Shown here: piece after piece, positions 32,070 to 33,750 of the stretch
How the letters are laid out: each line of letters begins with the position of its first letter
Position numbering within the stretch: the first letter of the stretch is position 1
From: Crossiella cryophila
GTDB taxonomy: Bacteria; Actinomycetota; Actinomycetes; Mycobacteriales; Pseudonocardiaceae
Reading direction: 5' to 3'
NCBI RefSeq assembly: GCF_014204915.1
Contig: NZ_JACHMH010000001.1
Coordinates: forward strand, 868,001 to 932,000
DNA: 64,000 nucleotides
Notes under the pieces: generated by a model
Database searches by the model: none
Told to the model about the DNA's origin: nothing
The model's input: only the letters and a program-made list of their open reading frames with translations
Translations under genes and position numbers: made by a program

Positions 32070-33587
32070 CTACTCGGCGGCAGCCAGTTCCAGGCGCGGG
32101 AAGACCGGCTTGGGCTCGGCCACGGTGTCGCCGCCGTCGCCGACCTGCTGCGCGATCCGCGCGGCGGCCGCGGGCAGGAACGGCACCAGGTGCTCCGCCA
32201 GTTCGCCGACGGTGGCCACCAGCTCGGCCAGCACCGCGTCCAGTGCGGCTGGCGGGGCGTCGTCCTTCTTCTCCGCCTTGGCCAGCGCCCACGGCGTGGT
32301 GGCCTCGACGAAGCGGTTGGCCTCATCGCCGATCCGGCTGATCGACTCGACCGCGCGCCGGAAGTCGAAGTTGGCCAGTGCCTCGTCAATGGCCGGCCCG
32401 GCCTCGGCGCGGGCGGCCCGCAGCGCGGCCGCGGCCGGGTTGTCCTGCGCCACCGGCGGGATCACGCCGTCGCGGTACTTGCGCACCATGGACACCGCGC
32501 GGTTGACCAGGTTGCCCATGTTGTTGGCCAGGTCCTCATTCGCCCTGGTGACCAGCCGCTCGGCGGTGTAGTCGGTGTCCCCGGCCCTGGCCACGTCACG
32601 CAGCATCCACCAGCGCATCGCGTCACTGCCGTAGGCGGCCACGATGTCGGCCGGGTCCTCGGCGTTGCCCAGCGACTTGCTGATCTTCTGGCCACCCGCG
32701 GTCAGGTACTCGTGCACGAAGATCGTCGAGGGCAGCGGCAGCCCGCCGGAGAGCAGCATGGCCGGCCAGTACACCGCGTGGAAGCGGATGATGCCCTTGC
32801 CGATCACGTGCACCTGCTCGACGTCCGCGGACCACCAGTGCCGGTAGCCCGCCTCGTCGGTGCCGAAGCCGGGTGCGGTGATGTAGTTGGCCAGCGCGTC
32901 GAACCACACGTAGACGACCTGCTCGGGGTCGCCCGGCACCGGGATGCCCCAGCCGCGCGCCCTGGCCATGCTGCGCGAGCAGCTGAAGTCCTCCAGGCCG
33001 GACTCGATGAAGGCCAGCACCTCGCGCTTGCGGTGCGGCGGCTCGACCCGCAGCTTGTCGGTGGAGATCAGCTCGATGAGCTGGTCCTGGTACCGGGAGA
33101 GCCGGAAGAACCAGTTGTTCTCCTCGATCTCCTCCGGCACCGTGCCGTGCTCGGGGCACTTGCCCTCGTTCAGCTCGGCCTCGGCGTAGAACAGCTCGCA
33201 GCCAACGCAGTACAGACCGGTGTAGCTCTTGCGGTAGAAGTCGCCCTGCTTGGCGCACAGCTCCCACAGCTTGTCCACGCCCGGCTTGTGCCTGGGGTCG
33301 GAGCTGGTCTTGATGAAGTCGTCGAAGGACAGCTCGAGCGCCTCGCCGAGCTTGAGGAAGTTCTGCGCCACCCGCTCGACGTAGTCGGCCGGGGTGATGC
33401 CCTCGACCTCGGCGGCCTGCACGTTCTTCAGCGCGTTGTCGTCGGTGCCGGTCTGCGCGCGCACCTCGTCGCCGCGCTGCCTGCGGTGCCGGGCCAGCAC
33501 ATCGGCCTGGATCAGCTCCAGGGCGTGGCCGACGTGCGGCTTGCCGTTGACATACGGGATGGATGTCATGACGTTGTAGCGGCTCAT
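32070..33587 (-). CDS. metG: Methionyl-tRNA synthetase
   Basis: 505 residues, class I synthetase. It charges tRNA-Met and so feeds initiation and elongation. The HIGH-type motif is H-V-G-H-A near residue 18 and the KMSKS-type motif is K-I-S-K-S near residue 295. A zinc knuckle (C-V-G-C ... C-P-E-H) is present at about 127-147. AGGAAGG lies 5 nt before the ATG. Upstream is a methionine-rich leader with alternative hairpins, so expression probably senses charged tRNA-Met. Confidence 0.97.
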   Translation of the reverse strand: MSRYNVMTSIPYVNGKPHVGHALELIQADVLARHRRQRGDEVRAQTGTDDNALKNVQAAEVEGITPADYVERVAQNFLKLGEALELSFDDFIKTSSDPRHKPGVDKLWELCAKQGDFYRKSYTGLYCVGCELFYAEAELNEGKCPEHGTVPEEIEENNWFFRLSRYQDQLIELISTDKLRVEPPHRKREVLAFIESGLEDFSCSRSMARARGWGIPVPGDPEQVVYVWFDALANYITAPGFGTDEAGYRHWWSADVEQVHVIGKGIIRFHAVYWPAMLLSGGLPLPSTIFVHEYLTAGGQKISKSLGNAEDPADIVAAYGSDAMRWWMLRDVARAGDTDYTAERLVTRANEDLANNMGNLVNRAVSMVRKYRDGVIPPVAQDNPAAAALRAARAEAGPAIDEALANFDFRRAVESISRIGDEANRFVEATTPWALAKAEKKDDAPPAALDAVLAELVATVGELAEHLVPFLPAAAARIAQQVGDGGDTVAEPKPVFPRLELAAAE

Positions 33588-33599
33588 CGCTACCTTCCT

Positions 33600-33705
33600 G
33601 GCCCCGGACGGATGGTGTCGGCCCGGTGAGGGGCCGCCGGTTGGGGGGCCTCCTCAGCAGTGGTCAGGACATGCGGAGGAGGCCGGAGAACATCATCATC
33701 CGGCC
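33600..33705 (-). promoter_or_regulatory. Attenuator-like hairpins of metG
   Basis: Three successive pairings in the RNA. (A) GGCCGGA / TCCGGCC (33699-33705 with 33681-33687), its loop holding the leader's three consecutive Met codons. (B) GGCCTCCTC / GAGGAGGCC (33676-33684 with 33647-33655), which uses the 3' arm bases of A, so A and B exclude each other. (C) GGCCCC / GGGGCC (33630-33635 with 33600-33605), which ends right at the metG ribosome site. This is the form expected of leader-peptide control. Confidence 0.6.
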
Positions 33706-33738
33706 GCGCATGGTCATGCTGTCGCACGTCCTCAGCAT
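33664..33738 (-). CDS. Methionine-rich leader peptide of metG
   Basis: 24 codons from ATG at 33738 to TGA at 33664. Seven Met, at positions 1, 8, 10, 14, 15, 16 and 23; the triple Met sits inside a hairpin loop. No ribosome site precedes it; TACCCT lies 6 nt upstream of the ATG, so the mRNA appears leaderless and starts with this peptide. A ribosome waiting for Met-tRNA at codons 14-16 would cover the downstream arms and change the folding before metG. Confidence 0.65.
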   Translation of the reverse strand: MLRTCDSMTMRGRMMMFSGLLRMS

Positions 33739-33744
33739 GGGAGC

Positions 33745-33750
33745 AGGGTA
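33745..33750 (-). promoter_or_regulatory. Predicted -10 element of the metG leader transcript
   Basis: TACCCT on the minus strand, 6 nt before the leader ATG. It lies just after the hspR stop codon, so metG appears to have its own promoter. No -35 is evident. Confidence 0.45.

Follow-up and report, generated by a model that had tools for sequence, protein, structure and literature searches.

A conserved leader peptide with methionine codons precedes metG in Crossiella and actinobacterial relatives and probably forms part of a ribosome-mediated attenuator

Introduction

Can a leader peptide report the supply of charged methionyl-tRNA, when a shortage of methionine also blocks the start of every protein, the leader peptide included? 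A Met-codon attenuator is for this reason an odd sensor, and the question is raised by a short reading frame rich in Met codons that lies between hspR and metG, the gene for methionyl-tRNA synthetase (MetRS), in the 64 kb stretch of Crossiella cryophila DNA analysed here (the window).

For actinobacteria, the part of PMC1262725 that was available describes attenuation of trp, trpS and leuS, terminators together with leader peptides at ilvB, and leader peptides at cys genes, and reports no attenuator or leader peptide for methionine operons. Eight leader peptides of Streptomyces lividans TK24 are given in the available part of PMC8079986, including those before alaS, thrS, leuS and trpS and one, metL, before metNIQ. 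Here we combined analysis of the window with a survey of metG loci in the family and the class, and conclude with a probability of about 0.82 that metG is preceded by a ribosome-mediated attenuator which reads the supply of charged elongator Met-tRNA.

Results

A methionine-rich reading frame between hspR and metG

The gap and its flanks contain the following elements:

34222-33770, minus strand: hspR, matching NF047375, on the other flank of the uORF gap
33745..33750, minus strand: -10 element TACCCT of a putative leaderless promoter, ending 6 nt 5' of the uORF ATG
33664..33738, minus strand: uORF (ATG 33738, TGA 33664) for the predicted leader peptide MLRTCDSMTMRGRMMMFSGLLRMS, with putative regulatory Met codons 14-16
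33593..33598, minus strand: GGAAGG, Shine-Dalgarno-like site of metG
32070..33587, minus strand: metG, methionyl-tRNA synthetase of 505 aa (TIGR00398), the putative regulated gene

Both flanking assignments are well above their cut-offs (hspR, NF047375, 139.1 bits vs 105; the metG product, TIGR00398, 435.3 bits vs 336.35), and the window metG is the sole TIGR00398 match in the Crossiella genome at E values up to 1e-20. A preliminary description of this DNA had pointed to a 24-codon frame with seven Met, three of them consecutive, and to a -10-like hexamer close to its ATG. That observation is real, and understated: the frame can be read on the minus strand with its three consecutive Met at codons 14-16, TACCCT (33750-33745) stands 6 nt from the ATG, and among the 463 short ORFs (10-40 codons, six frames) of the window just this one has at least five internal Met, the runners-up having four. 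Counted from the longest start, an in-frame upstream GTG, its internal Met number seven. A sigma-70 scan that required both hexamers found no promoter, and a terminator scan found no terminator.

The leader is present in five Crossiella genomes, that of the window included, and the MetRS of Crossiella sp. S99.2 and SN42 are 97% and 95% identical to that of the window. When the window is compared with the most distant Crossiella considered (90% MetRS identity), the uORF is 97.3% identical at the nucleotide level; identity falls to 79% in the spacer and to 45% in the DNA that precedes the -10 element. Since the four-fold sites of metG are 65% identical in the same pair (186 sites), the uORF is under tighter constraint than the synonymous sites of the gene that follows it.

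Distribution of the leader among relatives

MetRS protein searches were run over 297 family genomes, retaining the best 5 candidates per genome, and over 394 class genomes, retaining the best 3; further copies are possible. At the loci examined, two kinds of metG were distinguished, an IPYVN/IAYVN type with at least 46% identity to that of the window and a conventional type at about 40%. All 36 class rows at 54% identity or more were examined, the window's own being excluded, and 13 conventional metG controls were taken from class rows at 38-43% identity. Rows left out were L059 (a fragment of uncertain start), L013 and L014 (named copies of L009 and L010) and several second copies in the family search.

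Conservation of the Met codons in relatives had been set beforehand as a test of the preliminary description, and it was borne out: a leaderless uORF with in-frame Met codons precedes metG at 63 of the 85 IPYVN-type loci and is absent at 22. All 36 IPYVN-type loci of the class sample carry it, as do 27 of the 49 in the genus and family samples. These leaders fall into five family groups, to which a covariance model adds two leaders in a sixth. With f and g denoting family and genus groups, examples of the peptides are VSTTRVNAEATSSRMMLMHMPSGLLRAS (f20), MTQCTQPMMRPVQGPLRVR (f22), MTAQVMMTR and MNAQVMMAR (f19), MNWVASALTAAEMMPR (f10) and, from the window's own family f1, MRKSVALMMWPLPGSVSVH (g27) and MSSSSPVMAPRHAGRPTLHG (g21). 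A TAnnnT element stands 6-8 nt 5' of the uORF start at 58 of the 63 leader loci, and in all 63 a distance of 59-104 nt separates the uORF stop from metG. At the leader-less loci L018-L022 (g19, in the window's family), a TAGCCT-like box is found just 5' of the metG start codon, an arrangement like that of a leaderless gene.

The methionine codons are in frame and are found by a detector blind to methionine

Over 58 distinct uORFs, 139 internal ATGs are in the uORF frame and 4 are out of it, and Met is enriched 17.6-fold over shuffled composition, followed by Thr at 1.63-fold with no other residue above 1.65-fold, in a set of uORFs that had been picked partly by their Met content. Tandem Met-Met occurs at 46 of the 63 leader loci, and the other 17 retain at least one single Met codon.

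Because of this way of picking the uORFs, a Met-blind detector was run, which asked for any ORF that starts with ATG or GTG, is 8-40 codons long and has TAnnnT 6-8 nt 5' of its start, within 220 nt before metG. At the 85 IPYVN-type loci it returned 58 uORFs, all at loci already called as bearing a leader and all 58 with internal Met, and it returned none at the 22 leader-less IPYVN-type loci and none at the 13 conventional metG loci. It missed the leaders at L042, L046, L048, L056 and L076, which have a weaker -10 element; under a looser -10 rule, a one-Met GTG ORF was also returned at the conventional locus L104 and at the leader-less loci L029 and L035.

Mutually exclusive stems in the window and their conservation

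The RNA between the start of the uORF and metG can form the following pairings:

33681..33705, minus strand: stem A, GGCCGGA/TCCGGCC (33705-33699 with 33687-33681), a predicted fold with Met-Met-Met in its loop
33647..33684, minus strand: stem B, anti-terminator-like, GGCCTCCTC/GAGGAGGCC (33684-33676 with 33655-33647), exclusive with A and with C
33627..33656, minus strand: stem C, a terminator-like hairpin without U run (-17.4 kcal/mol, z -3.25)
33600..33635, minus strand: alternative pairing D, GGCCCC/GGGGCC (33635-33630 with 33605-33600), read from the sequence and adjoining the ribosome site

Stems A and B overlap in GGCC, as the preliminary description had claimed for a stem with Met codons in its loop, and stem C reuses the 3' arm of stem B, GAGGAGGCC. 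A pairing that ends at the metG ribosome site had been described as well, under the name stem C; this is probably pairing D, which abuts GGAAGG.

In the window, the leader RNA through C is more stable than dinucleotide shuffles (z -4.25, 0/200 as good), and so are the B-forming RNA (z -2.85, 2/200) and stem C alone (z -3.25, 1/200), both of the latter measured on stretches trimmed to the helix, which favours them. A fixed 65-nt stretch 3' of the uORF stop did not differ significantly from shuffles (p 0.135). As a duplex, stem B reaches -20.1 kcal/mol, and 0/300 shuffles were as good.

We then asked which of these stems are kept. In 15 leaders of the window's clade, RNAalifold picked stem B unprompted and 86.7% of the cells of stem A are paired, both stems being so nearly invariant that they have no covariation support, and for stem C 0/500 shuffles matched its pairing or its covariation score. 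In f22, the consensus fold of 15 leaders contains A and C together with stems that cover the ribosome site of metG, and these jointly beat 500/500 shuffles on all five measures, the changes on both sides of a pair being confined to C and the ribosome-site stems and A varying on one side only. The expectation that the stems would be kept in relatives thus holds for C in the window's clade, and for A, C and the ribosome-site stem taken jointly in f22, and lacks covariation for A and B in the window's clade. An outer stem of 10 pairs can also be drawn in the window (33666-33732, minus strand) between uORF codons 3-6 and the last codons, and may explain the constraint at both ends of the uORF.

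Over 58 leaders, the stretch with hairpin C is on average more stable than shuffles (mean z -2.2; 31/58 at p 0.05 or less). The stem A stretch does not go beyond shuffles (mean z -0.5; 7/58 at p 0.05 or less), in a test that cuts off the 5' arm of A in the window's clade. Stem B has a mean of -14.0 kcal/mol vs -11.1 for the shuffled null, with only 14 of 52 leaders at p 0.05 or less. A scan for hairpin C with loose limits was rejected, as it took the wrong hairpin in many leaders, including that of the window; the T counts after C and the equilibrium folding given below use a compact-hairpin rule, of which some picks in other clades are doubtful.

A predicted ribosome-controlled switch

How such stems could govern metG was modelled by equilibrium folding with ribosome footprints, the edge of the ribosome being assumed to lie 13 nt past the first base of the A-site codon. 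With a ribosome stalled at Met14 of the window uORF, the calculated probability of C is 0.00 and that of the upstream pairing 0.73. Placing the ribosome at the stop codon instead raises C to 0.63, and leaving it out altogether raises C to 0.91. In this model the RNA of the window goes through the states of a classical attenuator, predicted super-attenuation without translation included. Comparing the released with the stalled state over 58 leaders, a shift of at least 0.3 took the expected direction in 12 and the opposite one in 7, so the switch has the support of equilibrium folding in Crossiella but, as a rule, lacks it in other clades, where kinetics or another output may be at work.

From the arrangement of these elements we infer the following chain of transcription start, uORF translation, stall and rise of metG. 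Transcription would start at or beside the uORF ATG, so that a ribosome would load at once on the leaderless RNA. With plentiful Met-tRNA the ribosome would reach the stop codon and cover the 5' arm of B, C would form and metG expression would be curtailed. With scarce Met-tRNA it would wait at Met14-16, where it would break A; the 3' part of A would then pair, as B, with the 5' arm of C, and with C blocked metG would be expressed. Low levels of charged Met-tRNA would in this manner induce metG. Initiation requires formyl-Met-tRNA, and deep Met starvation should therefore also halt translation of the leader, which counts against an attenuator.

Specificity of the leader and other methionine regulators

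Two covariance models of the leader were used. In the Crossiella genome, model R1, built on the window's clade, matches once at E up to 1, at the window leader, itself a training sequence. It matches in 7 of 197 class genomes, each time directly before metG by coordinates; 6 of the 7 were in the model, so G334 alone is independent. At E up to 0.05, model R2, from f22, has matches in 38 of the 296 class genomes searched, and its 17 matches below E 1e-7 all lie before metG, 13 of them having built R2. Of the four outside the training set, two (G470 and G371) were already known as metG leaders and two belong to a new family group, f31, with the peptides VRRDDRMMRPSPGPFGVR (G342) and VRTCVELMMSPSPGPLGVR (G389). 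As assembled, the gene behind the G342 leader has a broken frame and of the gene behind the G389 leader (L140) only the first and last parts of a MetRS are present. Among 150 family genomes, R2 has its six best matches before metG; the weaker matches L141-L144 and L160-L162 do not.

Known RNA regulators were also sought in the metG gap of Crossiella. No T-box or other Rfam family matched there at gathering score; at E up to 5 there were four matches, to other families and all far below their cut-offs. SAM and cobalamin riboswitch models had no match in the gap, and the same library detects both elsewhere in the genome, a SAM riboswitch before a metN-like gene and cobalamin riboswitches before two metE-like genes (L121, L122 and L123; C1:333900-335200, 5279700-5280900 and 8124200-8125400). 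A Met leader of the metG kind was not found before the metN-like gene or the two metE-like genes. As these genes are under SAM or cobalamin riboswitches, a tRNA-charge sensor on metG would not duplicate them.

Alternative explanations

With the same sensor, the output could be another one: the stalled ribosome might free the metG ribosome site, or expose or hide a Rho site, instead of preventing intrinsic termination at C. We hold this to be a serious possibility, if somewhat short of an even chance. In its favour, the U run expected of a terminator is absent after C in most leaders (at least 5 T within 12 nt in 3/58 only), the ribosome site of metG is covered in f22 by a hairpin that includes covarying pairs, and the mean unpaired probability of the ribosome site is below 0.3 in 31 of 58 leaders, a raw value with no shuffled or gene-wide control. 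Yet GGAAGG in the window is mostly unpaired (0.70), and some f22 C hairpins are followed directly by short T stretches. In the relatives, the output may be a masked metG ribosome site instead of, or besides, termination, and for Crossiella we lean towards premature termination. In f22 leaders such as that at L077:2971-3134, the sequence GCGGGGG of the 3' arm of C complements CCCCCGC in the 5' arm of the ribosome-site stem. Once B has formed, these two arms could pair with each other as a second alternative and so leave the ribosome site free.

The sensor itself might be of a different kind. That the uORF encodes an arrest peptide sensing a drug, such as a macrolide, or another ligand rather than the Met-tRNA supply is very improbable: drug-sensing leader peptides are a known kind and the C-terminus SGLLRxS, with near variants, is conserved in the window's clade, but stems A and B, joined in the window by the outer stem, can account for this constraint, the peptides of other clades share little beyond Met codons before a GC hairpin (MMxP..G...VR, VMMTR, VMAPRHAG), and the cognate synthetase lies downstream in 17/17 R2 matches below E 1e-7. 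Only marginally more credible is it that the ATGs act as RNA letters, as start codons or a binding motif, and are not decoded as Met, or that the uORF merely boosts metG by re-initiation, for which the 59-104 nt between the uORF stop and metG in 63 leaders is far. As Met has one codon, synonymous changes cannot tell codon from motif; the bias of internal ATGs to the uORF frame (139 to 4) and the varying spacing of Met (MMM, MMLMHM, MTM, single M) nevertheless speak against RNA letters. Bacterial leader genes have been proposed as sites of re-initiation, according to the available part of PMC4833913. As for chance, which would have placed a Met-rich stretch in the gap together with GC-rich hairpins such as are common in GC-rich DNA, hairpin A alone does lie within it, but the conservation refutes this explanation, and the frame bias, the tree distribution and the model matches outside the training set likewise oppose it. 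We therefore retain an attenuator that reads charged elongator Met-tRNA as the preferred reading.

History of the leader and second MetRS genes

A MetRS tree was built by a quick method from 59 rows, 44 with and 15 without leader, omitting loci with short DNA. The leader requires 3 changes on this tree vs a mean of 13.5 for shuffled labels, and under the midpoint root used for drawing the simplest reading is one old leader with three losses. At L035 (G260), a loss in the tree, and at L057 (G239), outside the tree, metG follows directly behind the leader's -10 element; judged from their sequences, these loci look like deletions of the leader that left metG leaderless, and would represent natural leader-free alleles. 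The Crossiella side of the deepest fork holds the f20 rows, along with two rows from f19 and 8 from the window's own family; of the 25 rows that this family has outside the genus, 17 are on the other side of that fork from Crossiella. From these positions, gene and leader seem to have moved together.

Among 20 chosen leader-bearing genomes, 15 have another MetRS over the TIGR00398 cut-off, and the leader-type enzyme is the sole one in five (two Crossiella, two f20 and one f19). The 15 include G355 and G342, in which the leader-type gene is below the cut-off, with its frame broken in the assembly, and another, intact MetRS is found elsewhere in the genome. In the two-copy genomes G355, G420, G097, G114 and G201, the leader stands at one copy only (in G114 the leader is called by model match alone). 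The frequent second MetRS and the restriction of the leader to one copy suggest an auxiliary enzyme under attenuation, like the auxiliary tryptophanyl-tRNA synthetase (TrpRS) discussed below. Leaders followed by a broken or mostly missing metG were seen at G355:C1:4127262-4128676, G342:C9:547748-548722 and L140 (G389).

A wider proposal, which we put forward as speculative and rather unlikely to hold as a whole, is that the leader and the IPYVN-type MetRS together make up a backup module, mobile and self-sensing. Most genomes would have it as a second MetRS, which the attenuator keeps off until failure or inhibition of the housekeeping MetRS turns it on, and in Crossiella and f20 it would have replaced the housekeeping enzyme while retaining the switch. 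Because MetRS also feeds initiation, such a module would respond only to a middle range of Met-tRNA shortage.

Discussion

The metG leader is real and conserved. It belongs to a known kind of regulator, to which it adds a new amino-acid specificity, and is unreported within the open-licence PMC matches listed. Among the matches listed from open-licence PMC papers, none describes a leader peptide of metG or MetRS; an earlier prediction elsewhere is possible, for instance in the comparative study by Lopatovskaya and colleagues.

One related system is reportedly that of Streptomyces coelicolor, connected with indolmycin. By its title, the work of Vecchione and Sello (2010; cited in PMC4787780) concerns ribosome-mediated transcriptional attenuation of the gene for an auxiliary, antibiotic-resistant TrpRS, and the likeness to the metG leader, as far as the title conveys it, lies in the ribosome-mediated attenuation of an auxiliary aminoacyl-tRNA synthetase gene. 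That system senses Trp, whereas the metG leader would sense Met, and in Crossiella metG encodes the sole MetRS found. Cognate-codon leaders stand before other synthetase genes too, namely alaS, thrS, leuS and trpS in S. lividans (PMC8079986) and trpS and leuS, with attenuators, in Streptomyces (PMC1262725), to go by the available parts of both sources; of the eight S. lividans leaders given in the former, none precedes a MetRS gene. The ilvB-II motif of Corynebacterium, in the portion of PMC10272879 at hand, is likewise a conserved actinobacterial uORF attenuator enriched in cognate amino acids, but it serves a branched-chain biosynthesis operon and not a synthetase.

If it works as proposed, the leader would mean that cells can read the charge of elongator Met-tRNA apart from initiation, and metG would join the synthetase genes under leader-peptide control. 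The leader is also a conserved and easily recognised element for the annotation of actinobacterial genomes, and it suggests a reason why many of these genomes have two MetRS genes.

The metL leader of S. lividans TK24 resembles the metG leader in being leaderless, actinobacterial and provided with Met codons, and its mode of termination is unclear too in the available part of PMC8079986. It differs in that its target is the methionine importer metNIQ and in that its Met codons are near the end and not in tandem. Where S. lividans metNIQ has the metL leader, according to the same part of PMC8079986, the metN-like gene of Crossiella has a SAM riboswitch.
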